Shown here: one piece after another, positions 7,193 through 38,108 of the stretch
How positions within the stretch are numbered: position 1 is the first letter of the stretch
Layout: every line of letters begins with the position of its first letter
Virus record (IMG/VR): IMGVR_UViG_3300027129_000008
Location: 1-60,824 of that record
Strand: one strand, 5' to 3'
Origin: a virus
Length of the DNA: 60,824 bases
Notes under the pieces: generated by a model
Told to the model about the DNA's origin: nothing
Seen by the model: only the letters and a program-made list of their open reading frames with translations
Database searches by the model: none
Position numbers and translations under genes: made by a program

Positions 7193-8104
7193 TTATTTTT
7201 GGATGTTGCTTTCGAAGTATTCAATCGCATAGTCCTTTGCTTTGAACTCAAAGTCCAAGTCAATGTCTTCGCCAACGAACTCTTCGGGAAACTTGGTAGG
7301 ATAGTCCGCATGCGCACGAGGATTACGATTTTTGACATCGTTATCGCTGAAATGAAACAGCGGAACATAACTACCCCATGTAGATTTTGCCAGTGTAACT
7401 GCATTTTTAGCAGTCAGACCGCCAGTATTACACTGAAAATGTAAATTGTCATATGTAATCGGAATACCAGTTTCTTGATAAATGTAGTTATACAGCTGGT
7501 CAACATTCCAACTATTGGGTTTGTCTTCGTTCTCCAATACCAAACGACTCTTAACACCCTCAGGAAGCTGTCTAAACACCTCTATAAACCGTTTTGCCGT
7601 AGCTTTGAGGTCTCCCTTATAACAGTTCATGTGGATGTTTATAGGCGCATTATACGAACGAGGAAGACCCAACCGATCCATAATATCAGCATGATAGGTC
7701 AATTCCACAATAGATTTCTGTGCCACAGACTCATTTGCACTGGCAGGAACCACAAACTGGTCGGGATGAGTGCTACAACGAATATTACTATTTTTGATAA
7801 GAATAGCACATTCACGAAATGCTTGATCAATCTTGTCTTTATCTGGAAGACAATCGAATGATAGATCTGCTTCGGGTAGAGTTTTTAGAGGAAATAGATC
7901 GCTACTTACACGATAATTCCATCCTTTATCGATACAATACTTGATAGTTTCTTTTGTAACATTAACGTTGTTTAATACACGTTTGCTAAGAATTTCAAGT
8001 GAATCGACACGTTCAAGTGCAAGAAACCGTGATTTTGTCATGGTATTTGCTTTGAAACCACGTTCTTGGAGCTTAAGGGATATACAACACAAACTTTTTC
8101 TCAT
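7193..8104 (-). CDS. uvdE: UV damage endonuclease (UVDE family)
   Basis: A 303-residue TIM-barrel nuclease of the UVDE/UvsE family, which nicks 5' of UV photoproducts and other lesions. Seen here: RVSSDLFPL (about residue 65), the metal-site strands CSTHPDQF (about 110) and INIHMNCYKGD (about 155), LVLENEDKP (about 190), ITYDNLHFQCN (about 217) and the final LFHFSDND (about 250). These match the Glu/His/Asp metal ligands of the family. The start at 8104 is supported by family alignment, because the N-terminal LCCISLKLQE strand is needed. It has its own strong promoter with almost no leader. Confidence 0.9.
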   Translation of the reverse strand: MRKSLCCISLKLQERGFKANTMTKSRFLALERVDSLEILSKRVLNNVNVTKETIKYCIDKGWNYRVSSDLFPLKTLPEADLSFDCLPDKDKIDQAFRECAILIKNSNIRCSTHPDQFVVPASANESVAQKSIVELTYHADIMDRLGLPRSYNAPINIHMNCYKGDLKATAKRFIEVFRQLPEGVKSRLVLENEDKPNSWNVDQLYNYIYQETGIPITYDNLHFQCNTGGLTAKNAVTLAKSTWGSYVPLFHFSDNDVKNRNPRAHADYPTKFPEEFVGEDIDLDFEFKAKDYAIEYFESNIQK

Positions 8105-8584: not shown

Positions 8585-9766
8585 TCATCTTCCTACTTCA
8601 CCAAAGTAAAGTTTTTTTGAGTCTTCATAAGACATTCCGATCATTTTATTGTAATACAGAACGTCTCCCTTCAATCGATTCTCACTTTTGAGAGTCTTGT
8701 ATCTCGCAATCGCCTTTTGTCTCCACCAATCAATAATGTATTTTTCATTGTAAATTGGATTCAACTCTAGCTTGCTTTCTTCAATTTCTCCTTTTAGGAA
8801 ATCCCTACTATTACGATAGGGACAAGCATAGTATGTTCCACGTTCATATCCATGGACATATTCAGCTGCTTTAATTTCACACTGAGAGAAAATCATGCTC
8901 AACACACGATTCTTGGCACCAGTTACAGGTCCACTAACACCTTCTTTTTGGGTCATTGCCTGTTTGTATTTGTCAGCCTTGTTCTCTTTAATCCAGTCAT
9001 GCCATACCTTGTAAATGTCATCGTCTGGCTTGATAGTCATTTTACCACTACTAGTTCCACACTTGTGCCACCATTTAAGACTATTATACATACTGTAACT
9101 GCCATATAGACTGGTTGTGGTAATACCAGCCAGAGTTTGCCCATACAACTGCTTCCAAAGATTTCTTACAGTTTCACCAGTTACTAACCCCGCAATCAAC
9201 TTTCCACCCAAGAAGTTGTATCCAAATGGTTGGGTAGACATAATACAACTACCAATTGCACTGTTGTTCAGCTTCTTACATTTTAGTTTTGCATCGGGAG
9301 TCCAACCAATATAGTTATCACGATCAGTAATTGTAATAACATCACTGGACATACTAATAACACCAAGATATCTAGGATTATCTTTGTTGCCATCGCTAAT
9401 CAACAATTTGATGAATCTGCCTGGGGTTTGATCATATGCCATTGTATGAACAAACGTTCTAAGCATTACCCATTCAGTATCCAGTGCAGTATTATCTACA
9501 TGAACTACTGTTGGATTAATACTTTCAATTTCCTTAATAGTGGCTGCTTCATCATTTAGATCTGTGGGTGTCCAAATCTTGTTTCTGGCAATTGCTGCTC
9601 GTTCAGAATAATGATTTAATTCTTGCAGTTCGACCCACTTCTTGTAGAAGGTTTGTTCTTCTACAGACATCGACTTGAGATAATTGAGATTGTCAATTAG
9701 TTTCTTCTTGTTTGTCTCATAGTCGAATTGTTCGATTCCACTAAAATATTCTTGTAATACGTCCAT
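8585..9766 (-). CDS. DUF4338 / DruA-like protein
   Basis: Residues about 115-245 follow the DUF4338 pattern known from DruA of the Druantia defence system: LGVISMSSD (134-142), RDNYIGWT (149-156), a run containing KKLNNSAIGSCI, then LWKQLYG and TTSLYG (217-222), and a basic aromatic LKWWHKCGTSSGK. DruA's fold is not well characterised and the molecular activity is unknown. The rest of Druantia (DruB-E, a large helicase) is not here. The N-terminal 110 residues and the C-terminal 130 residues (with a CPYRNSRDF segment) have no match I recognise. No late motif points at this gene. Confidence 0.6.
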   Translation of the reverse strand: MDVLQEYFSGIEQFDYETNKKKLIDNLNYLKSMSVEEQTFYKKWVELQELNHYSERAAIARNKIWTPTDLNDEAATIKEIESINPTVVHVDNTALDTEWVMLRTFVHTMAYDQTPGRFIKLLISDGNKDNPRYLGVISMSSDVITITDRDNYIGWTPDAKLKCKKLNNSAIGSCIMSTQPFGYNFLGGKLIAGLVTGETVRNLWKQLYGQTLAGITTTSLYGSYSMYNSLKWWHKCGTSSGKMTIKPDDDIYKVWHDWIKENKADKYKQAMTQKEGVSGPVTGAKNRVLSMIFSQCEIKAAEYVHGYERGTYYACPYRNSRDFLKGEIEESKLELNPIYNEKYIIDWWRQKAIARYKTLKSENRLKGDVLYYNKMIGMSYEDSKKLYFGEVGR

Positions 9767-16253: not shown

Positions 16254-18551
16254 TTATAGGGCACATGCACCGCTTTCACAACCAGATTGTTGTTCAATCT
16301 TGGGTTCAGGCTTTACTGCCTCTGTCTTTTTATGTTCCATAGCGGTTTGTTTATCACCATCATCGGTATTAGCGTAATACAAATTCTTAATACCATACTT
16401 GTAAGCCATCAACATATCCTTAATAACTTCTTGAACTGGAACCTTGTTACTAGGATACCTTGAAGGAACATAATAGGTATTTGTGCTGATACTCATATCA
16501 GTGAACTTCTGAATAGCAGCAGCCACTCTGAGATATCCGTCATTATCAGGCATGTCAAAAGCAAACGTATAATGTTCCTTATACTTGTCAATGCCTGGAA
16601 CCACCACTGGCAAAATGTTACTCTTGCTTCCCTTGAAACTGATCAAACTACGAGGAGGTTCAATGCCGTTGGTGGAACTCTGAATCACACTGCTTGACTC
16701 CACAGGCATACAGGCAGTAAGAGTAGAATGTCTCATACCATGTTTCTTGATTTCCTCACGTAGAGCTTCCCAATCCATATGTAAAGGTTCAGTGATGAAT
16801 TCATCAACGTCTCTCTTATAAGTATCAATCGGCAACACTCCTTGACTAAACTTAGTTTTGTCAAACTTCTCACACTTACCAAGTTCCTTAGCCATTTCAA
16901 CAGATGCTTGAATCAAATAGTAACTCTGCTTCTCCATCCACTTGGCAACAAAGTTTGGAGCATTCTTATCCCAATACTTCAATCCTTCTTTTGCCAACAA
17001 AGCAGCCAAGTTACTTACACCAACACCAAGACTACGGCGTCTCTTGGCAAAGTTCTCAGCAGCCGGAACGAAATAGTTTTGGTGTTCGATCAAAGAATCC
17101 AACATTCTGACGATCACTTCACACACACTCTTCATTTCTTCGTCATCCTTGATCTCCAACCAGTTTACAGCAGCAAGAATACAAACGCCAATTTCACCGT
17201 TCTTGTCATTAACATCCTCAATAGGAATCAAAGGATGATTGACTTCAAGACACAAGTTACTGGTGTCAACCTGTTCCAACCAACTGCCGTGGTCGTTAGC
17301 ATGGTCAACAAACATGGTATAAATACGACCAGTCTCCAAACGTTCCTTGGCAAGAAGACCCATCAATTCACGAGCAGAAACCTTCTTCTTGAACTTAATG
17401 TTCTTGTTGGCTTCAGCCTTTTCATACTTTTCCTTGAAGTCAGCAAATCCAAAGCTGTTCCACAAACTAGGACACTCATGATAACTGAACAATGTAACTT
17501 CCTTGTTTTGGAGGAAACGTTCAAAGATCAACTTATCCAATCCTACACAATAGTCCAATTTACGAACACGGTTATCATCAGTTCCGGCATTGTTCTTCAA
17601 CACCAAGATATCCATGATGTCATAGTGGAACCAAGCAAAGTTAACAGTTGCACTTCCACCACGAATACCGTTCTGGTGACAACACTTCACAGTGGATTCA
17701 AATGCCTTGGCAAAAGGAATTGGTCCAGTATGAATAACTTCACCATTACGAATTGGAGCATTGGTGGCACGCAAACGAGAAAGGTTCAAACCAATACCAT
17801 AACGACTTGCAGTGGCAAAACCAACTGCACTGTTGTTGCTGAAGATACTCTTGAGAGTGTCATCAACGGTGAATAGAGAACATGAAGCATAACTCTTCAT
17901 TGGAGTTCTCACACCAGCCATGATTGGGGTTGGAAGATTGATCTTGTGTTTGCTAAAATAGTTGTATGCCTTCTTTACATACTCAAGCCGACCTTCCTTA
18001 TAATCCTTGAAGAACGTCATGGCAATCAACATATATGCGAACTGTGGAGTCTCATAGATCTTCTTGGTTGATCTATTTTGCACCAAGTATTTGTCACACA
18101 ACTGCTTGATACCGGCATAAGTGAAATTGAAATCACGATCATGCTTCAGATATTCGTCAAGCTTGTCGAACTCTTGTTTGGTATACCAGTTGAGAATTTC
18201 TTCATCATATACCAAGTTGGTTATGTTTTCCTTTGTGAGGTCATACAACTTGGGTGGATTCTTGCCTCCCCACACTTCTTTACGAAGATGGTAATTCAAC
18301 AATCGTGAAGCAACATATTGATAATTAGGCTTTTCTTCACTAATCAAATTTGCAGCTGCTTCGATCAACATAGAATGAACGTCCTTGGTTGTCATTCCAT
18401 CAAAGAAGGACAAGTGTGCATTCATTGCTACTTCCTCAAAACCAACACCTTTGATGTCAACGGTAGCCCATTGCAAAACCTTATTGATTTTGTCTGCGTT
18501 GAATTTCTCTACCTTACCGTTACGTTTTTTAATAAAAATCTCTTTGTTCAT
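16254..18551 (-). CDS. nrdA: Ribonucleotide reductase class Ia alpha subunit (NrdA)
   Basis: 765 residues. The N-terminal ATP-cone (about residues 3-90) gives allosteric activity control. Active-site features: Cys224 in SYASCSLF, Asn432/Cys434/Glu436 in SNLCLEV, Cys457 in GEIGVCILA, and the C-terminal redox pair CESGACAL. It is full length and apparently intact. It pairs with nrdB just downstream. A long inverted repeat lies upstream, between it and the helicase gene. Confidence 0.95.
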   Translation of the reverse strand: MNKEIFIKKRNGKVEKFNADKINKVLQWATVDIKGVGFEEVAMNAHLSFFDGMTTKDVHSMLIEAAANLISEEKPNYQYVASRLLNYHLRKEVWGGKNPPKLYDLTKENITNLVYDEEILNWYTKQEFDKLDEYLKHDRDFNFTYAGIKQLCDKYLVQNRSTKKIYETPQFAYMLIAMTFFKDYKEGRLEYVKKAYNYFSKHKINLPTPIMAGVRTPMKSYASCSLFTVDDTLKSIFSNNSAVGFATASRYGIGLNLSRLRATNAPIRNGEVIHTGPIPFAKAFESTVKCCHQNGIRGGSATVNFAWFHYDIMDILVLKNNAGTDDNRVRKLDYCVGLDKLIFERFLQNKEVTLFSYHECPSLWNSFGFADFKEKYEKAEANKNIKFKKKVSARELMGLLAKERLETGRIYTMFVDHANDHGSWLEQVDTSNLCLEVNHPLIPIEDVNDKNGEIGVCILAAVNWLEIKDDEEMKSVCEVIVRMLDSLIEHQNYFVPAAENFAKRRRSLGVGVSNLAALLAKEGLKYWDKNAPNFVAKWMEKQSYYLIQASVEMAKELGKCEKFDKTKFSQGVLPIDTYKRDVDEFITEPLHMDWEALREEIKKHGMRHSTLTACMPVESSSVIQSSTNGIEPPRSLISFKGSKSNILPVVVPGIDKYKEHYTFAFDMPDNDGYLRVAAAIQKFTDMSISTNTYYVPSRYPSNKVPVQEVIKDMLMAYKYGIKNLYYANTDDGDKQTAMEHKKTEAVKPEPKIEQQSGCESGACAL

Positions 18552-18664: not shown

Positions 18665-20050
18665 TTATTCTTCGTCGTCTGTGCTACTATGGGCATTCCA
18701 CTTATTCTTCAGAATTTTCTTGACTTGGTTTTCACCATCCATCATCTCATTCTGAAGTGCCATACCTTCTCTTGAAGATTCGCTGAATATTTCAATCTGA
18801 CCACATCCGGCATTCATCTTACTTGGGAATGTCAAACCGTCTGGTCCGAAACGATTCTTGATGATATGGAATCGTGCAGTGTTGTTAACTTTATCGGTAA
18901 CTTTACGACTGAGTGACATAACAAAGTCGGCAGTCATGATCTTACGATAACTGTCTGCGATGTTGTTAGCCTGAATGATATCTTCATCCATTGCGGCACG
19001 ATTACTTTGTGAAGCACTCCAAATAGGAACTTGTAGTTCACCCGCAATACTTCTCAATTCTTCGTAAATACCACCAGCTTCTTGATAACTGTTACTATTA
19101 CGATCACTGTGAATTGGTCGAAGAATATCAGCGTAATCGACAATAATCATATCAATCTTGGTTCCCAGAGTATGAATACGTTCACAATGTGACTTCAAAC
19201 TATGAGCTGATACTGTCTTGATCGGGAAATACTTGATCTTCAATTTACCAGGCACTTCGTTGATCTTCTGTTTGACCACCTCGACATTGTTACGAATATT
19301 CTGGAAGTCAATACCAGTGAAACAACTATCATAACGAAGACCAACATAGTTCTCATTCAACTCCAACGTGAAGTGAAGAACATTCTTTCCTTGCTTCATT
19401 GCCTCGGCACCAAGCTTACTCAAGACCCAAGACTTACCAGATCCGGCACAAGCCGTAATAATACCAAGTTCGCCAGGTCCAAGACCACCGTCCATCAAAC
19501 CATCAATTACTTCCCAATTGGTTTTGATTGAATTACGAGCCATCACAGTCATACGCTTCTCAACGTCTTCTTCATACGAATGACCGAGATTACGTTCCAT
19601 GCCTGCCTTAAGAGCTTCATCAACCTTGCTCTTGATCTTTTCATACTCACCAGTTGCCAACAAATCTGCGGCATCCATGATGGCATTCTTCAACTTCTGA
19701 TTCTTACAGAATTCAAGAAACTGTTCCTTGATGAACTTCAAATCACCATCGTTCATCTTTTGATACACCAACTTTAGACTGTTAACGATACTCGCCTTGA
19801 GTGCCTCATTGGTGATGGTTTCAAGTCTGACCTTGAAAACGTTGAGTGAAGGAAGATCACGATATTCATGAAAGTAACTGATACTTTCCTTGACGATCCA
19901 TCTATGTGCCTCATTCTCAAAGAAGTCTGCTTCTACGATGTCTGCCAATCGTTCAATGAATGGACGATCAGATACCAGTCCTGCGATGCATTTAACTTGG
20001 AATTCATTTCCAAACTTTTTTAGGTTGTCGATAATTACTTTGTCGCTCAT
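18665..20050 (-). CDS. Replicative DNA helicase (DnaB/T4 gp41-like)
   Basis: 461 residues in the usual two-part layout: an N-terminal helical domain (about 1-150) and a RecA-like ATPase. Walker A is ACAGSGKS (200-207), followed by LHFTLELNENYVGLRYD and the Walker B segment MIIVDYADILRP (about 297). SQSNRA is in the sensor/arginine area, and an acidic SSTDDEE tail closes the protein. It unwinds the fork with the primase; the primase is not in this window. SD GAAAGT, preceded by an intergenic hairpin. Confidence 0.85.
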   Translation of the reverse strand: MSDKVIIDNLKKFGNEFQVKCIAGLVSDRPFIERLADIVEADFFENEAHRWIVKESISYFHEYRDLPSLNVFKVRLETITNEALKASIVNSLKLVYQKMNDGDLKFIKEQFLEFCKNQKLKNAIMDAADLLATGEYEKIKSKVDEALKAGMERNLGHSYEEDVEKRMTVMARNSIKTNWEVIDGLMDGGLGPGELGIITACAGSGKSWVLSKLGAEAMKQGKNVLHFTLELNENYVGLRYDSCFTGIDFQNIRNNVEVVKQKINEVPGKLKIKYFPIKTVSAHSLKSHCERIHTLGTKIDMIIVDYADILRPIHSDRNSNSYQEAGGIYEELRSIAGELQVPIWSASQSNRAAMDEDIIQANNIADSYRKIMTADFVMSLSRKVTDKVNNTARFHIIKNRFGPDGLTFPSKMNAGCGQIEIFSESSREGMALQNEMMDGENQVKKILKNKWNAHSSTDDEE

Positions 20051-20117: not shown

Positions 20118-21185
20118 TTAGATTACGAAACTGTTGACCTTACCCCAAGTCTCATTCAACCATACCATGTAGTTTGGTAGGTTATTCCACATTTTATCTT
20201 CGTTGATCAACTTGCTGAAGACCAGTTTGTTTATATGGGGAACTGGCTTTTGAATGATCTCTTCAATTCTGAGTTGAGTGAATGACTGAATTTGTGTGTC
20301 TTTCAACTGCATCAACTCATGATTTCTATCAAGTGTCAGTTTGTCACTCAACACTTTTTCATAGAGCTTATACTTGCCTTTGTTGTTTTCAGCGTAATTG
20401 TAAATTTCTTGCAGAGAAGTTTGACGTTCGTCTGCCAAAAACGGAAAACACTTCAATATGGTTTTTAGACCAGCACCATTGATGCCTGGAATATTATCAC
20501 TATCATCACCTTCCATAGCTCTATAGAAAATGAAGTTGTTACATGTGATACCATATTCATCTACGATTTCTTTACAACCAAAAATCTTCTTCTTGGTAGG
20601 ACTCCAAATTTTGATTCTGTCACTGGCCAACTGTAAAAAGTCTTTGTCCGATGACATGATGGTAACGTTGCTGTCCTTGAATGTTTGTTCAGCCAAATAA
20701 GCAATAGTATCATCAGCTTCAATATTATCAATTGCCATCACAGTAATTGGTAATACGTCAAGATAGTTGATTAGTCGCAACAACTCCATCTTGAGATTCT
20801 TTTGCTCAATATCACTATTAGACATATCGTCATAGGTTCTATTGAACTTGATACGAGTCTTACGTCCCTTTTTGTATTCTGGGTAAATCTTACGACGTTT
20901 TTGACTACCACCATTACCGTCAAAAACAACAATAACACGGGTGGGATTCAATAGTTTGATTGCATAACCGACACTCTTCAAGAAACCAGCAATCCCACCC
21001 GTGTGCATTCCATCGTCATTCATAGATGGAACCGCCATGAACGATCTAATAAAGGTATTTAGACCGTCCACGATAAGGATGTCGGAGTTGGTAGTTTTTT
21101 GAAGGCCACCAGCCCCGACATCCTCTTTGATGTTCTCAAACAACGAGAACAACTTTTTCTTTTCGTTGGAAGTAAATCCACTCAT
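20118..21185 (-). CDS. 5'-3' exonuclease / RNase H (T4 Rnh-like FEN family)
   Basis: 355 residues with the metal-binding carboxylates of the flap-nuclease family: Asp40 in IVDGLNTF, Asp89 in VVFDGNGGSQKRR, Glu156/Asp158/Asp159 in IEADDT, Asp180/Asp182 in SSDKDF, and the H3TH segment GDDSDNIPG (226-234). It is about the size of T4 RNase H (305), which removes RNA primers from lagging strands. The start is two bases after the UvsX stop, so they are co-translated. Confidence 0.85.
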   Translation of the reverse strand: MSGFTSNEKKKLFSLFENIKEDVGAGGLQKTTNSDILIVDGLNTFIRSFMAVPSMNDDGMHTGGIAGFLKSVGYAIKLLNPTRVIVVFDGNGGSQKRRKIYPEYKKGRKTRIKFNRTYDDMSNSDIEQKNLKMELLRLINYLDVLPITVMAIDNIEADDTIAYLAEQTFKDSNVTIMSSDKDFLQLASDRIKIWSPTKKKIFGCKEIVDEYGITCNNFIFYRAMEGDDSDNIPGINGAGLKTILKCFPFLADERQTSLQEIYNYAENNKGKYKLYEKVLSDKLTLDRNHELMQLKDTQIQSFTQLRIEEIIQKPVPHINKLVFSKLINEDKMWNNLPNYMVWLNETWGKVNSFVI

Positions 21186-21187
21186 GA

Positions 21188-22330
21188 TTATTCTTCAGCG
21201 CCAGCGTCTTCTTCGTCAGACGACACTTCTGCGTCTTCAACAATCTTGCTGTTAGGGTCTTTATACTTCATCACAGTTGCGTCACAAATCTTCAAGTAAA
21301 TTTCTTCCTTTAGCTTTGTGTCAGTTTGCAACGTAGAAATGAAATCCTTAGACTGGAACTTCCATTCGGTGCCATCATCCTTTTGATAGGTATAATATGC
21401 ACCACCTTGTTTGATCAGATTATTGTCCTTGAGAACTTTAATCCAACTGCTGTAGTCGGCAATTCCGCTATCGTAGTAGATATCGAAATTAGCGAGTCGA
21501 TTGGGCGGACCCATTCTGTTCTTAACAACAACTGCCTTACACTCATTACCGATGATTTCCTCACCCTTCTTGAGCTTACCAGTGTTGTTAAGACGAACAC
21601 GAACACTACAATGATAAGCCAGAGCCTTACCACCACTCACTACATACTTGTCACCAAATGCCATAGCATTTAGATTCTGACGTAGCTGATTAGTAAACAC
21701 GGTAAGAACCTTTTGCTTACCAATCATGTTGGTGATCTTTCTCATAGCCTTACTGATAATGATACTCTTACCAGTTGCATAACCATCCTTGCCATGATCA
21801 CTCTCTAGTTCTGCCTTTGTTGAAGCAGCAGCCACAGAGTCAACAATGATTGTGAGAATACGATCCTTGTTAGACTTTCTCACAATTGCAATCATCTTCT
21901 CCATCTGTTCAAAAATGTCCTCAACGGTTTCACATTGAACATACAGAAGTTTAGATAGATTTACACCAAGACTCTTCCAGAACTCAGGAGCAGCAGCGTT
22001 TTCAGTATCAATAACCACTGCAATTCCACCCTTCTTTTGGGTATCGGCCACGACATGCGCACTAACAAGACTCTTACCAGTGCCTTCAAGACCGTTGAAT
22101 TCTACCATTTTACCAACAGGCAATCCACCGTGAGGACGATTGCTGATTGCTAAATCCAAAATAGATGATCCCGTGCTGATCCAGTCAGTGATATCAGCCG
22201 GATTATCTTGTTCATCCAACCTATACGCAATCTTTCCACCATCCTTATTAGCCTTGTTAAGCTCATTTTGGAGTAGATCAATTAGATCGTCTCTGTTGGA
22301 TTCTTGTCCGCTATTTGATTTTTTTGCCAT
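21188..22330 (-). CDS. uvsX: Recombinase UvsX (RecA family)
   Basis: 380 residues. Walker A GLEGTGKS (80-87), Walker B IIVDSVAA (161-168), then the L1/L2 region with NQLRQNL (about 214-220) and a GGKALAYH segment. The C-terminal tail is acidic (DAEVSSDEEDAGAEE), as in UvsX. It promotes strand exchange with the gp32-like protein for recombination-dependent replication. It lies below the gp32 gene; a strong hairpin between the two should reduce its level relative to gp32. Confidence 0.85.
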   Translation of the reverse strand: MAKKSNSGQESNRDDLIDLLQNELNKANKDGGKIAYRLDEQDNPADITDWISTGSSILDLAISNRPHGGLPVGKMVEFNGLEGTGKSLVSAHVVADTQKKGGIAVVIDTENAAAPEFWKSLGVNLSKLLYVQCETVEDIFEQMEKMIAIVRKSNKDRILTIIVDSVAAASTKAELESDHGKDGYATGKSIIISKAMRKITNMIGKQKVLTVFTNQLRQNLNAMAFGDKYVVSGGKALAYHCSVRVRLNNTGKLKKGEEIIGNECKAVVVKNRMGPPNRLANFDIYYDSGIADYSSWIKVLKDNNLIKQGGAYYTYQKDDGTEWKFQSKDFISTLQTDTKLKEEIYLKICDATVMKYKDPNSKIVEDAEVSSDEEDAGAEE

Positions 22331-22391: not shown

Positions 22392-23282
22392 TTAGGAGTT
22401 GAACAAGTCATCAAAAGCCTTCTCTACATCAGTAGATCCGCCCTTTGACTTACTTGCGGTTGGGGAAACAAAAGCAGCCTTCTTAGTCTCTGCCTTTGGT
22501 TGAACAGCAGTCTTTACTCCAGACGGAGCAACTGCCTTTACTGTAGCGGGAGTTTCAGCGACTTCCTCTTCAGCCTCAGTTCCAGCGGGAACTTCAACTT
22601 CAGCGGTTTCGGTTTCTGGATTCAACCACTTATCCATAACGTCCTTGAGTTCATCATAAGACAACTCTGGGAACAGATCAAGGATGTTAGTCTGATTCTT
22701 GAGGGAATCAACCAACTGAGCGTTCTTAGGATCAACAGCAGGTGTGACATTTGGCTTCACACGAACTGTGGTCTCAGGGAAGCTCTTACCAGTTTCCTCT
22801 GCGGTCTTGAACTCAATGGTAATATCACGACCATTTGCGAGATCAGTAATATCACCATACTCTGGATCAAGACATACCGACACAAGCTCTTGATACACGG
22901 TCTTACCGAATCCCCAGAACTTCACACCTTCACTCTCTTGACCACGAACGATCACAGGAGCGAATGTGCGCATCTTGGGTTCCATCTTACGACCCATCTG
23001 CCAATCTTCCTTGGAACCAGTCTTCTTCAAACGATTGGCAAACTCCACAATAGGATCTGGACGACCAAAGCTGTCAGGAGACAAATAGGTCTTACCATTG
23101 ATATTATAGTGGAACTTGAGTTCAATAAACGGATTCTCGGGATTGAACTTGTAGGGAACAATACGAACAACTTGTTTACCGGGATTAGGCTTCCAGAGAA
23201 CATCATTCTTCTTACTGTTTCCAGAACCTTGGCTTGAAAGGGAGTTCAAGCGACTCTTCAACTGCGATATATTTAGTGCCAT
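22392..23282 (-). CDS. Single-stranded DNA-binding protein (T4 gp32-like)
   Basis: 296 residues with the gp32 order: a short N-terminal cooperativity helix (LKSRLNSL), an OB-fold core (about 28-190, with VLWKPNPGKQVVRIVPYK and KFWGFGKTVYQEL), and a long acidic and linker-like C-terminus ending FDDLFNS, the protein-interaction tail. T4 gp32 binds zinc through three Cys and one His; only one Cys is visible here, so the zinc site is absent. No SD precedes the start; instead the leader is an A/U-rich repeat (see the regulatory entry). Confidence 0.8.
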   Translation of the reverse strand: MALNISQLKSRLNSLSSQGSGNSKKNDVLWKPNPGKQVVRIVPYKFNPENPFIELKFHYNINGKTYLSPDSFGRPDPIVEFANRLKKTGSKEDWQMGRKMEPKMRTFAPVIVRGQESEGVKFWGFGKTVYQELVSVCLDPEYGDITDLANGRDITIEFKTAEETGKSFPETTVRVKPNVTPAVDPKNAQLVDSLKNQTNILDLFPELSYDELKDVMDKWLNPETETAEVEVPAGTEAEEEVAETPATVKAVAPSGVKTAVQPKAETKKAAFVSPTASKSKGGSTDVEKAFDDLFNS

Positions 23283-23418: not shown

Positions 23419-23814
23419 TCACCAAGAAAGCACAGAAAACAACTTTAATCCGACTATTTTTACGCCTGGATCTGCTACCAAAATGATGCTATTTTTGTAT
23501 AAATCCCAGTTTAATTGAAAGGTTTTATCGAACACACCGTTGTTCTCGTCTTCAATCAATCTGTTCATCGCATTCAACGTATATAGCGTGTTGGTTTGCT
23601 TCTTTCTGTGAACGCTTATCGTATTCGGATATTTGATTTTGGAATCGATGTTTTTAACAATATTGAATGTGAGATAAATTTCTCTCAGATTCTTCTCGTT
23701 AGCAAACACGAATATTTTGTTATCTGCCATCTCGTAGGTCTTTTTGATCTCGTCTACGACTGACAAATATTTGTTGCTGTCTGAGAATGTGCAAAGCAGT
23801 TGTTTTTGAATCAT
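23419..23814 (-). CDS. Hypothetical protein upstream of gp32
   Basis: 131 residues with an alternating strand/helix pattern (KIFVFANEKNLREIYLTF, then SIILVADPGVKIVGLKLFS), which suggests a small alpha/beta fold. I do not recognise it. Its ATG overlaps by ATGA with the stop of the 625-residue gene, so it is coupled to that late-type gene rather than to gp32. Confidence 0.55.
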   Translation of the reverse strand: MIQKQLLCTFSDSNKYLSVVDEIKKTYEMADNKIFVFANEKNLREIYLTFNIVKNIDSKIKYPNTISVHRKKQTNTLYTLNAMNRLIEDENNGVFDKTFQLNWDLYKNSIILVADPGVKIVGLKLFSVLSW

Positions 23815-25688
23815 GTTAATGTAGGTTCAGCAACAGGAGGTAACTGCGTCGATGTGTTTGGCATTTCCCATCTCCAAGCACCATCGGCATGTCCTTCAAA
23901 TCCTAAAAATTCTGTGAAGCTTTCCCATCCCTCAGAAATCAACGCATTTAGATATCTCGAAAAGCGCAATAACACTTCAAATATACTTTGTAAACCAGAT
24001 TTGATGTTCTCCCAAGCCTTTGTGAAAAAGTCTTTTAATTCGCCACTAAGCGATTTGATTGTGGTCCAAACATCACTAAAATAGTCACTGATCGACTTGC
24101 CTATGTTTTGCAGTGTGTCCATAAGGCCTTCATCCAATTTGATTTCTTCTAGTTTAATATCACCACGAATCGCAATACCACGGGTGCCACCACGGTTTGA
24201 AAATCTGAACGATATGTTCTTATCGTTTTCAGTAATGAACTTATCTACTGTGTAATAATGGCAATCACCACTACAGTCCCAAGTCATCATATAGTCGGCA
24301 ATACACTCGGCACTAAAGTCTGCCTTTCCTTGTTGGAATCTACGTTTTCCAGTAGCAAGTTCCTCAATTAGCAAACGACGACGAGCTGGTTGAACAAATA
24401 CACTATTGAGTGTCAACATCACAGTTTCAGTATTAACAGGTATCACACCCTTCTTTACAAACTGTTTGTTTTGAATAATGATCTTCTCAATATCACCAAC
24501 TTCTGCTTTGATTTGATCTACAGATTTATTACCTTTAACAGCATTCGTCAACGACTTTTGTAGTTTCTCTTTTACTTCATCGTTTAGTCCGATATAAAAC
24601 TTCTTTTGTAGACCATCCATAATGAATGACGAAACTTGTTCCATCACCTTTACGTCTTCACCAGAGTCTTTCAAAATAGCAGATACTACAGAATTGACTT
24701 CGGCATTTTGAGCACTACAAATTTGTGCTCCCTTTGCCTTCAAACTGGCTCTCATACGTGTCTTACCTTCAAAGATCAAATCGGTCTTTGAGGTTCTGTC
24801 AATATTTGCAAAAATAGGATTGGTAATATTACATCTCAAATTACCCAATGCAGTTGATGCTTTGATACCTTGTTTCTTCAACTTTGCTACAATCTTCTTA
24901 GCAACATCGTCGTCTGTTTCAATTCCAGCAAACTCGTCATTGATGTGATACTCCATTTTTTGAGCATTACATTTGACTTGCTTTTCTACTACAACAACTG
25001 GACCAACATTTTCTTTATAAACTTGTTCACCAATCATGTTGCCAGCCTTGTCATACCAACGAAGACCATTTTTTACATATCCCAATTCAGTTGCTTCGTT
25101 GACAGTATATTCTTCTTTCTCACAATCATTGCACCCACAATCTTCACATTCATCTACTTGTTGGTTGATCAATGGAACTCCGCCAGTCAAAATTGAATCA
25201 ACAGCAGCCGCATCTTGAACTTTTTCTTTTGTGCTTCTGTCGTCTTTTTTATCATCTCCAGTAACTTTCTTGTTCAACTCCTTGTCAAGAGAAACTGTGT
25301 CAGACTTATCTTGTTTGTCTTCTTCACCAGAATCGGTTTTCGCAATATCAGCGGTTGATAGTCCTCCTGTGTCAGAGGGTGAAAACAAAGTTCCTGCATT
25401 TTTCTTCGGGTTTTCTGCAAAGTGAGTTCCTTTATCTACGGCACGGTCACGATATTCTTTGCTTGGAAATGTAACCAATATACCATCTTTATTGTAAGCC
25501 TGACGTTCTGGGAAACGACCTGCTTCAAACAACTTTGCTGTTCTCTCGACCACCGCATCAATTGAAAATCCAGCCTTCTCCAAGTATTCTTGTAACACAA
25601 AAACGTGTTCAGGCATTTCTAGCCTCAACACGCCATCTTTTATACGACTGTCACAACACACATCGTTTATAATTGAGTTGAATTTCAT
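23811..25688 (-). CDS. Large hypothetical, probably virion-associated protein
   Basis: 625 residues. A TTG at 25691 could be called, but the ATG at 25688 is preferred: it follows the late-type motif by four bases. Features seen: a Lys/Asp-rich linker (about 115-165), a CEDCGCNDCEKEE cluster (about 175-190) that looks like a metal-binding knot, a second globular part (about 240-470), and a C-terminal part (about 520-600) with several amphipathic helices (SISDYFSDVWTTIKSLSGELK). No family recognised. Its place between the tail module and replication genes and its late motif suggest a structural or injected protein. Confidence 0.6.
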   Translation of the reverse strand: MKFNSIINDVCCDSRIKDGVLRLEMPEHVFVLQEYLEKAGFSIDAVVERTAKLFEAGRFPERQAYNKDGILVTFPSKEYRDRAVDKGTHFAENPKKNAGTLFSPSDTGGLSTADIAKTDSGEEDKQDKSDTVSLDKELNKKVTGDDKKDDRSTKEKVQDAAAVDSILTGGVPLINQQVDECEDCGCNDCEKEEYTVNEATELGYVKNGLRWYDKAGNMIGEQVYKENVGPVVVVEKQVKCNAQKMEYHINDEFAGIETDDDVAKKIVAKLKKQGIKASTALGNLRCNITNPIFANIDRTSKTDLIFEGKTRMRASLKAKGAQICSAQNAEVNSVVSAILKDSGEDVKVMEQVSSFIMDGLQKKFYIGLNDEVKEKLQKSLTNAVKGNKSVDQIKAEVGDIEKIIIQNKQFVKKGVIPVNTETVMLTLNSVFVQPARRRLLIEELATGKRRFQQGKADFSAECIADYMMTWDCSGDCHYYTVDKFITENDKNISFRFSNRGGTRGIAIRGDIKLEEIKLDEGLMDTLQNIGKSISDYFSDVWTTIKSLSGELKDFFTKAWENIKSGLQSIFEVLLRFSRYLNALISEGWESFTEFLGFEGHADGAWRWEMPNTSTQLPPVAEPTLT

Positions 25689-25692
25689 CAAT

Positions 25693-25703: not shown

Positions 25704-27017
25704 TTAACTTGAGACTAATTTCAAATCATTGTAATTATTTCCTTCATAAACCTTTACCTTGAACCGTTTATTTCTGATAATGTCCACTACATCGTTGATT
25801 TCTTCGGGTTTCACACTACTATCCACATCAAACAATATACTGTCATAAATGTATAATATTGGTATAATCGGTTTACCCGACACATATTTCAACACATTAC
25901 CAAGACTGTTCAATCCATATTCAGTCTCAGTTGCTTGAATGATATAAGCAAACAACTTGTTCTTGTTAGGATCAATAATATGATGTTGATTGATCTTACG
26001 TTTGTAGATAGGGGTCTTTACATAGCCCTTGTTGGTAAACTCTTCCCAATACCTATTCTTAAGTTCTTCCACCTTTTCAAAGTAAGGTATTTGTATATGT
26101 TTGTCTGATATCTGACCATACAAATTCACCATCGTCTGTTTCTTGGATTTAGACAATGTATTTGCATCTACTACATCAATATTGTAATACTGTTTGGCCA
26201 AATGTTCATAAATGGTTTCTTCATCTGGAACCTTGTATTGAATCAATTGTGCGACTAGATACGGATGAAAACCAGTAAAGTCAACCATCATTAGTTTACC
26301 ATTGGCAAACCTAGATGTAAAACTTTCACGACATCCGTCTTCTTTGTTAAGAGCTACATAATTTACACTATCAAACTTGTTGCTTGGTCTGCCAGTTGGA
26401 TTGTAAATATAATACTCACTGTAGACAGTATCTTGACTACCATCCTCACTAGTCACAACTCTTGCATTTGGAAAACAAGCTTTGAATTGAGGAGTATTGA
26501 CATGAATACCATTACGTTCAACTTCAAACAAAGTATCTGTAACAATGTTATTGAAAAACTTGAAACAATATGAATCTGTGTTTTCATCTTCATACTGATC
26601 AATTAGATCTACTTCTGCATCAAATTCATTTTGGTGAACAACATACGGAACCACCAAATTGACATGATTCAACTTGTTGTGAGTCATCTGTAACTGTGTG
26701 GTATACAAATGATTTGGCATTTCAACAACCTCACCATCTTTAAGAAAGGAAAACAAGTTTATGTCATATAATTCCGCATTTGGAATATGATACTTGTATC
26801 GTTTCTTGTTGTTGACATAAACCTTCTTATTTGCCAACGTTTTCTTGAACGTCTTAAGAGTTGAGTTTGCGGTTACGTCGGGATGTTCAAAATTAAAGTA
26901 TTCCGACTGTTTGGTTTGATAATCGTAAACAAACGCCGCAATCACCTTGTCTTGCGACGGATGAAGGTTTGTATCTCTGAAGATGAACTTCAAATATATT
27001 TTGGATGATTGTGACAC
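25704..27017 (-). CDS. Degenerate family-A DNA polymerase-like protein
   Basis: The C-terminal 270 residues (about 170-437) carry family-A polymerase landmarks in order: TGRPSNKF, then motif A VDFTGFHPYLVA (Asp246 in place of DYSQIELR), motif B KKQTMVNLYG (Lys and YG kept, first Arg lost), GYVKTPIYKRK, and motif C IYDSILFDV (HDE changed to YDS; Asp kept, Glu lost). There is no 3'-5' exonuclease domain that I recognise. I use the GTG at 27017 because a TTG at 27026 lies inside the -10 of its own promoter. Among structural genes this is an odd location; whether it polymerises DNA is unknown. Confidence 0.7.
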   Translation of the reverse strand: MSQSSKIYLKFIFRDTNLHPSQDKVIAAFVYDYQTKQSEYFNFEHPDVTANSTLKTFKKTLANKKVYVNNKKRYKYHIPNAELYDINLFSFLKDGEVVEMPNHLYTTQLQMTHNKLNHVNLVVPYVVHQNEFDAEVDLIDQYEDENTDSYCFKFFNNIVTDTLFEVERNGIHVNTPQFKACFPNARVVTSEDGSQDTVYSEYYIYNPTGRPSNKFDSVNYVALNKEDGCRESFTSRFANGKLMMVDFTGFHPYLVAQLIQYKVPDEETIYEHLAKQYYNIDVVDANTLSKSKKQTMVNLYGQISDKHIQIPYFEKVEELKNRYWEEFTNKGYVKTPIYKRKINQHHIIDPNKNKLFAYIIQATETEYGLNSLGNVLKYVSGKPIIPILYIYDSILFDVDSSVKPEEINDVVDIIRNKRFKVKVYEGNNYNDLKLVSS

Positions 27018-27052
27018 AGCATACAATATACATCATGCTGTGCTACTGTCAA
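27015..27052 (-). promoter_or_regulatory. Strong sigma70-like promoter with a dyad around the -10
   Basis: TTGACA (27047-27052), 16-base spacer, TATATT (27025-27030), ending 7 bases before the GTG, so the mRNA is nearly leaderless. An 8-bp inverted repeat (27015-27022 with 27035-27042) is centred on the -10 and may be an operator. Confidence 0.7.
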
Positions 27053-27058
27053 ATATAT

Positions 27059-27445
27059 TTAATAGCCTTGCCAGAATTGTAGTGGATTAGACAAAACAAT
27101 CTCGATGCCTGGCAGAGTTTTGTTCAAGTTTGAAATTTGTAACAAGTTGTTTTCTTGAACTCCAGCTTCTAACAAAATTCGATCTTTGTATAAACTGTTC
27201 TTTCTTCCGCTAATTTGCCAGTCCAACTTACCTTTCACAAAAAAAGCCTCGTCGGTGGCACCATAGTCTCTAGCATTTGTTTCTATGATCATTTGTTGAT
27301 TCTTTTTACCAACAAAGTATCTGGTTATCCAACCATATTCATAGTCCTTCTTTTTTGGTGTAGGAATATAGGTGCTAGGAAAGAATAGACTGAATTTCTC
27401 CAATCCTAATCTGTATGCTAATGCTGGATCAGTATCTTGAATCAT
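27059..27445 (-). CDS. Hypothetical tail/baseplate-region protein
   Basis: 128 residues, mixed alpha/beta (GLEKFSLFFPSTYIP, then YGWITRYFVGKKNQQMIIE, ending NPLQFWQGY). Not recognised. Its ATG overlaps by ATGA with the stop of the 1088-residue gene, so it is translated with that protein and is likely a structural partner. Confidence 0.55.
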   Translation of the reverse strand: MIQDTDPALAYRLGLEKFSLFFPSTYIPTPKKKDYEYGWITRYFVGKKNQQMIIETNARDYGATDEAFFVKGKLDWQISGRKNSLYKDRILLEAGVQENNLLQISNLNKTLPGIEIVLSNPLQFWQGY

Positions 27446-30713: not shown

Positions 30714-31004
30714 TTAATTTGCTTCTTTAAGATCCTGCATAATTTGTGGTAAATTGCCTGGTATTCTGATTTGCTTTCCTACTGGTATAGATAGTCTACC
30801 ATTACCCAAACCGTTAGCATTTGCAATTACCCACCAATAACTTTCATTACCATAATACTTTTTAGCTAAACTATCAAGATAATCTTCTTCACTAGCAGTA
30901 ATATAAATATCATTGACATCTGGTGGAATAACTGGGTAATATGTTGTAGCATATACTCGGTTTCCGTCCCAGCGCTTTTGGATCGGTGTAAATTGATATC
31001 TCAT
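30714..31004 (-). CDS. Baseplate wedge protein with LysM-like domain (gp53-like)
   Basis: 96 residues. The core DYLDSLAKKYYGNESYWWVI, followed by a short NANGLGNGRLSIPVG and IRIPG, is a LysM-like fold as in T4 gp53, which closes the baseplate wedge ring. It is much shorter than T4 gp53 (196 residues), keeping only the LysM core. It sits between the hub-like and 847-residue baseplate proteins, the normal place for wedge components. Confidence 0.7.
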   Translation of the reverse strand: MRYQFTPIQKRWDGNRVYATTYYPVIPPDVNDIYITASEEDYLDSLAKKYYGNESYWWVIANANGLGNGRLSIPVGKQIRIPGNLPQIMQDLKEAN

Positions 31005-37316: not shown

Positions 37317-38108
37317 TTATTTTGGCTTGATCTTCTTTTGAGCGTCTTGTGCAGCTTTTGTTAAAATACCGGCTCTCACATTAATTTTAGCAATTGCGTC
37401 CTTAAACTTGGATTCTGGTCCAACCAAAGCATCCATAAACCCATTGTCTTCGGTCATTATTTTTTTGATCAATGCTTTGATTTTTCTTCTTTTGATTTCG
37501 TCCATAGATTTCTTCTTGGTTAATATGTTATAAATACTTTTGACTACTCCAGTTTTTACGCCTGGATAATTTGTCTGGAAATTCTGAACGTCTCCGTTTG
37601 CCAAATCTTGTCTCAATGTGCTGGCACTAATACTTTGTCCGTTTTTTTCATCGGTTCTACCTTGATAGTTTGTTGGAGCATCGTCAGTCATTTCGATCAC
37701 CGACACATTCTGTGGTGCTGTTGAACCGTCTTTTGTTGGTTTGGTTTTATAACGATCAACTGCTGCTTTGAATATCTTGCTACGTTTAGCATCTTCTGGA
37801 CTCTTGGAACTGGCTGCCAATGCGATGGTTTCATTACTATCTTTTGGTAGATTGAAAACATATCCAAATGCTGCGTTCATAGGACTGTCATCGTTGACCG
37901 GCACAACCTCTACCTTGGGGTTTGTAGGCAATAGGTTCCATATTGCTACACTCTGTTGACGGTTAACTCCATCACGTTCACTTGGTCCTACCATCACAAT
38001 TACTTTACCAACATCACTTCGACTTGCAAATTTGTTGGCTAATCCAAGATGCCCAGCATGAGGTGGTTTGAATCCACCGGGTAGTAGCACAGTTACTTTA
38101 TTGTCCAT
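37317..38108 (-). CDS. Cytidylyltransferase-fold nucleotidyltransferase
   Basis: 263 residues. The N-terminal part carries the HxGH motif in PGGFKPPHAGHLGLANKF (His17, His20) and the second signature ISASTLRQDL (about 165-175, equal to ISSTxxR). This is the nucleotidyltransferase superfamily of NMN/phosphopantetheine/cytidylyl transferases; the substrate cannot be decided. The C-terminal ~60 residues are a Lys-rich helical tail (KRRKIKALIKKIM). It lies inside the tail module with its own late-type motif 3 bases from the start, so it is made late. Confidence 0.7.
   Translation of the reverse strand: MDNKVTVLLPGGFKPPHAGHLGLANKFASRSDVGKVIVMVGPSERDGVNRQQSVAIWNLLPTNPKVEVVPVNDDSPMNAAFGYVFNLPKDSNETIALAASSKSPEDAKRSKIFKAAVDRYKTKPTKDGSTAPQNVSVIEMTDDAPTNYQGRTDEKNGQSISASTLRQDLANGDVQNFQTNYPGVKTGVVKSIYNILTKKKSMDEIKRRKIKALIKKIMTEDNGFMDALVGPESKFKDAIAKINVRAGILTKAAQDAQKKIKPK

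Follow-up and report, generated by a model that had tools for sequence, protein, structure and literature searches.

A divPolA1-type family-A DNA polymerase with almost no thumb at the head of a phage replication module

The closest described relatives of the polymerase gene considered here belong to divPolA1, a group of family-A DNA polymerases (PolAs) reported from 14 genomes, with gp001 of Flavobacterium phage immuto as a founding member (Yutin et al., 2024; PMC11348598). In that description, divPolA1 is an extra PolA with a truncated thumb, an inactivated exonuclease and conserved palm residues, and its genomes combine a neighborhood of replication genes with a regular DNA polymerase of family A, B or C. 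A second thumbless PolA, divPolA2, occurs in the barbaviruses, which bear a family-B polymerase (PolB), and the same description sets it apart by its variable gene context and different N-terminal domain (Yutin et al., 2024). Group 2.2 jumbo phages likewise pair their family-B replicase with an additional polymerase of reduced form, a split minimal Pol III alpha, although this enzyme belongs to a polymerase family unrelated to the one discussed here (PMC7824862). Within the literature searched, divPolA1 is named in no later paper, and no report of activity or biochemistry was found for any of its members.

The gene lies at positions 25704-27017 (minus strand) of the window, which is the whole 60,824-nt stretch of DNA, from a T4-like phage, that was analyzed (IMG/VR record IMGVR_UViG_3300027129_000008). 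It is an intact ORF of 437 aa with a GTG start, and profile, homology and AlphaFold/Foldseek evidence identifies the product as a divPolA1-type auxiliary family-A DNA polymerase. Like immuto gp001, it is an extra PolA beside a regular polymerase (for the window, judging by its relatives), with a truncated thumb, the catalytic Asp residues and replication genes downstream. This anatomy largely agrees with the divPolA1 account of Yutin et al. (2024), who read their genomes likewise. New beside that account are the size of the family, a conserved promoter, an invariant His at the steric gate and a partner protein, p131; no mention of the last two was found in its divPolA1 description. Relatives of the window polymerase occupy at least 572 loci in IMG/VR, so that a family first described from a handful of genomes is common in environmental phages. 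The branch to which the window protein belongs differs from immuto-type divPolA1 in its Met at position 762 (E. coli numbering), its Tyr for Arg712, its GTG start and its sigma-70 promoter. We consider it moderately probable that the gene encodes an auxiliary polymerase of the divPolA1 type that is active but of low processivity and serves gap filling or recombination-linked synthesis.

Family-A identity and reduced architecture

A mechanical ORF call places the start at TTG 27026, which overlaps the -10 element of the promoter described below. Since the relatives begin at the position of GTG 27017, the latter is the likely start as judged from the alignment, and the coordinates of the original prediction were right. 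Between close pairs of family members dN/dS is 0.03-0.18, so the ORF encodes a protein and is subject to purifying selection.

Single-sequence searches with the window protein gave no Pfam hits and nothing significant in PHROGs. Within the family, 38 of 79 members match DNA_pol_A (Pfam PF00476; best E 2.3e-14) and 35 of 79 match PHROG 17 DNA polymerase, while a PDB search with a profile of the relatives returned meaningful scores only for Klenow (E 1.2e-6) and Taq. Comparison of the family profile by hhalign with five canonical PolAs, namely those of E. coli, T7, Roseobacter phage CRP-3, immuto (gp199) and Mammaliicoccus phage PMS2, gave 99.3% and an E-value of 2.6e-20. An AlphaFold model built with IMG/VR and GTDB relatives (pLDDT 95.2, pTM 0.91) matches Pol theta, Pol nu and Klenow in Foldseek at probability 1.00, with E-values down to 3e-18, and these top matches are not surpassed by any unrelated fold. 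By tblastn, the window protein finds immuto gp001 (MW353175-7; E 7e-30, 30% identity, 63% coverage), which is annotated as 'DNA polymerase family A' and clears the Pfam DNA_pol_A cut-off (42.7 bits), and the two proteins fit one alignment with shared invariant columns. The assignment to family A, proposed originally from the Pol I order of the motifs, is thus borne out by profile, profile-profile and fold comparison. Because L288, H251 and YDS take the place of the canonical motif residues R754, E710 and HDE, the window protein is, by these motifs, a divergent member of the family-A superfamily and not a canonical Pol I.

Very little of the thumb remains. The span between the landmarks that bracket it measures 38 aa in the window protein and 18-39 in the family, compared to 122 in E. 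coli Pol I, and no thumb helices are present at the equivalent span of the AlphaFold model. This leaves the protein about 85-90 aa short of canonical PolAs such as Klenow and those of T7, CRP-3 and PMS2, from which it also differs in an apparent loss of exonuclease activity. The original prediction had held that there is no exonuclease domain. None is detectable by sequence, and this part of the protein does not align reliably with the Klenow exonuclease, but the N-terminal domain of ~150 aa does superpose at least partly on Klenow, since the TM-score of 0.76 over the query exceeds what the polymerase part, 66% of the protein, would yield alone. As modeled, the N-terminal domain would agree with the inactivated exonuclease reported for divPolA1 (Yutin et al., 2024). 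A subgroup (L096, L106, L111 and L112) encodes proteins of about 342 aa that are shorter N-terminally and apparently do without the exonuclease-like domain.

Conserved and altered residues of the active site

Residue columns were read after 79 family members had been aligned with the five canonical PolAs, and conservation was also counted over 90 representatives, which are family members below 90% identity. The TGR, A, B and C motifs follow the order of Pol I and align to E. coli, T7 and the three other phage enzymes. Equivalents of R668, D705, K758, Y766, G767, Q849 and D882 are invariant in the 79 aligned members. Both metal-binding Asp residues, Asp246 of motif A (E. coli D705; codon at 26280-26282, minus strand) and Asp392 of motif C (E. 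coli D882; codon at 25842-25844, minus strand), are present in 90 of 90 representatives, and the equivalents of Lys758, Tyr766, Arg668 and Gln849 in at least 89 of 90. The fold, the four motifs, the Asp pair, Lys758, Tyr766 and Gln849 are shared with Klenow and the T7, CRP-3 and PMS2 enzymes. On sequence grounds, the strict conservation of the catalytic pair, together with the purifying selection, argues for an active enzyme.

Other positions have changed, and two of these changes, the YDS of motif C and the loss of the motif-B Arg, had been noticed originally and are confirmed by the alignment. Leu288 stands at the position of Arg754, where most relatives have Tyr, Ile or Leu, and the equivalent of H881 is Tyr in all 79 aligned members. 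At the F762 position, 65 of the 79 have Phe and 14 have Met, the window protein among them, and at the E883 position Ser, Ala or Cys occurs across the family. The YDS motif had been taken as a sign of abnormal catalysis, but the ordinary PolAs of CRP-3 and PMS2 have HDS there, so that Ser after the motif-C Asp is no mark of an odd enzyme. At the steric gate, all five canonical PolAs carry Glu, whereas the entire family carries His (79/79 aligned members and 90/90 representatives; His251 in the window protein, equivalent to E. coli E710, codon at 26265-26267, minus strand). This replacement and the near-total loss of the thumb are the two features that the first inspection of the sequence had missed. 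In Pol I, Glu710 excludes ribonucleotides. Since the changes of Glu710 to His and His881 to Tyr and the loss of Arg754, all departures from Klenow, T7, CRP-3 and PMS2, are fixed or nearly fixed and touch the nucleotide site, the chemistry or the substrate may differ from that of an ordinary DNA polymerase.

The losses invite the view that the polymerase has little or no catalytic activity left and is retained to bind DNA or to regulate, for example as a loader or as a scaffold for SSB and RecA. The steric-gate Glu, the motif-C His, the motif-B Arg, the thumb and the exonuclease activity (for which see Yutin et al., 2024) would all have gone, and yet, with no catalysis to maintain, the Asp pair and the Lys758, Tyr766, Arg668 and Gln849 equivalents should have been lost too, whereas they are retained almost without exception; the motif-C Ser, moreover, is shared with ordinary phage PolAs. 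We regard inactivity as rather unlikely. Less likely again is an RNA-tolerant or RNA-making enzyme for primer or transcript synthesis, whose changed steric gate would admit ribonucleotides. The exchange of the ribonucleotide-excluding Glu for His in every member and the missing thumb would suit such an enzyme, and an RNA-polymerase role has been proposed for the related but distinct divPolA2 (Yutin et al., 2024). However, the best 50 fold matches of the model are all DNA polymerases, with no T7-type RNA polymerase among them, and a primase role is weakened by the presence of a DnaG/Toprim-type primase candidate in several relatives (immuto, Mel-JY01, LR756508, G002, G003 and G013; none was detected in G001, G011, G012 or G014).

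Promoter, gene order and partner protein

The strong promoter of its own that had been predicted for the gene was found as TTGACA-16 nt-TATATT, with the -35 element at 27047-27052 and the -10 element at 27025-27030 (minus strand), ending 7 nt before the GTG. In the window's clade, all 18 members have such a sigma-70 promoter, its end 5-8 nt from the start codon, whereas comparable sites occur at 6 of 179 other genes from these loci and at 1.1% of random positions. If transcription begins at the usual +1, this spacing would give a leaderless or nearly leaderless polymerase message in the window's clade. In many other relatives, Bacteroidetes-type promoter sequences (TTTG ... TATATT/TATCTTTG) appear, as judged by eye, at the same place, and in L079, L143, L146, L061 and others sequences resembling such promoters (TTTG or TAnnTTTG) directly precede the polymerase start, where the window's clade has its sigma-70 promoter.

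Gene order, read as far as each contig reaches, is conserved in nearly all 90 representatives: tail genes (p886, p847, LysM, p1088, p128), the polymerase, in some cases p626, then p131, SSB, RecA, FEN, DnaB and RNR. The cultured phage immuto has the same order of tail, polymerase and replication genes. In the window, where all of these genes lie on the minus strand, the upstream tail block includes a LysM baseplate-wedge-like protein (30714-31004; PHROG 7145 baseplate wedge, E 2e-11) and ends with p128 (27059-27445), whose position is conserved. Downstream of the polymerase come p626 (23811-25691), a variable second operon gene with no family assigned, and p131 (23419-23814), followed by a gp32-like single-strand DNA-binding protein (22392-23282; Pfam gp32, E 2.9e-13), a RecA/UvsX-type recombinase (21188-22330; Pfam RecA, E 7.5e-55), a FEN-type 5'-3' exonuclease (20118-21185; Pfam 5_3_exonuc_N, E 1e-32), a DnaB-type replicative helicase (18665-20050; PHROG 19, E 7e-79) and the large subunit of ribonucleotide reductase (16254-18551; Pfam, E 2.6e-122).

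With tail genes upstream and SSB, RecA, FEN, DnaB and RNR downstream, the polymerase opens the replication module where this adjoins the tail genes, and the original placement inside the tail module was imprecise. That baseplate and tail genes lie immediately upstream in nearly all relatives might recommend it as a tail or virion protein, but its early-type promoter, its downstream neighbors and its polymerase fold make this the most improbable of the readings considered. As separate observations on the same loci, recA in L051, L093 and L154 is apparently split by an inserted ORF of 289-345 aa (cluster c16), which is possibly a homing-endonuclease intron, and such an ORF lies near FEN in L052. 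In L096, L106, L112 and L128, an apparent UvdE, recognized by eye, stands between p131 and SSB.

The small protein p131 (131 aa) carries an invariant HRKK..N..Y..N..N motif (HRKKxxNTLYTxNALN in the window). Its model (pLDDT 93.7) has no match in the PDB at E<=0.001, and no informative family was found either. The polymerase lies upstream of p131 in 57 of 57 p131 loci with enough sequence, and no p131 locus without a polymerase was found. As a member of the same operon, p131 is probably a dedicated partner of the polymerase, with which it may interact.

Replicases of the relatives and proposed role

The original prediction expected a canonical T4-like replicase elsewhere in the genome. The relatives support this expectation; in the window, a fragment of 60.8 kb, no other DNA polymerase was seen. 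Among 27 larger contigs or records, the window included, 18 encode a normal replicase of family A, B or C. PolB, often T4-like, accounts for 15 of them: in 14 it occupies a single frame of 816-904 aa, and in LR756508 the frames are split. Immuto has a full-length PolA (gp199, 777 aa), and two contigs have PolC. The nine contigs in which no replicase was detected, among them the window, are all linear fragments. Three of these, G002-G004 (131-134 kb), were considered as complete replicase-free genomes and rejected, because their ends lack circular overlap and their joint span is at least 150 kb; they do not cover the stretch that holds PolB in G001. In G001, PolB has its SMYPN and DTDS motifs intact and is located some 46 kb downstream, a distance that would fall beyond the window's end. 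By analogy with its relatives, the window's own phage would have a separate replicase. It is accordingly very unlikely that the gene encodes the main replicative polymerase, as its place at the head of the replication operon and the lack of another polymerase in the window could suggest, since full-length replicases of three families coexist with it in relatives and the contigs lacking one are unclosed.

The favored reading, an active auxiliary polymerase of low processivity, combines these elements as follows. The protein would be a Pol I core of fingers and palm that keeps the Asp pair and the principal contacts to primer and nucleotide but has shed nearly all of the thumb and, presumably, proofreading. 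Its gene would be transcribed from its own host-type promoter, first in the replication operon and apart from the late tail genes, and the product would work beside a normal replicase encoded elsewhere. Such a thumbless polymerase would grip DNA loosely and extend it by few nucleotides each time it binds, which would make short-patch synthesis its most likely job, either by filling gaps after the adjacent FEN has stripped primers or by extending recombination intermediates from the adjacent RecA and SSB. Catalytic activity, low processivity and loss of proofreading are thus predicted properties, and conservation and neighboring genes suggest gap filling or recombination, although operon position is no proof of which step is served. 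The polymerase may also be completed by p131. The earlier suggestion of a repurposed or conditional polymerase remains a plausible possibility.

A more specific proposal, which we think unlikely, is that divPolA1 and p131 together constitute a polymerase of two proteins, in which the substrate gate is altered (His for the ribonucleotide-excluding Glu, Tyr for the motif-C His) and the partner replaces the missing thumb. Its special product would be primers, patches or recombination ends that contain ribonucleotides, unlike that of any known phage polymerase. Since the family of the main replicase varies among relatives (A, B or C) while the second polymerase and p131 persist, divPolA1 probably has a task beyond the reach of the replicase. 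Two concrete, testable handles on this task are the sugar-gate His, which is invariant, and the constant presence of p131.

Three further genes of the window, all on the minus strand, were observed in passing. A DruA-like protein (Druantia defence; Pfam PF14236, E 5.8e-20) is encoded at 8585-9766, and a UV-damage endonuclease UvdE (E 1e-42) at 7193-8104. Within the tail block, the product of 37317-38108 contains a GFKPPHAGHL motif reminiscent of nucleotidyltransferases.
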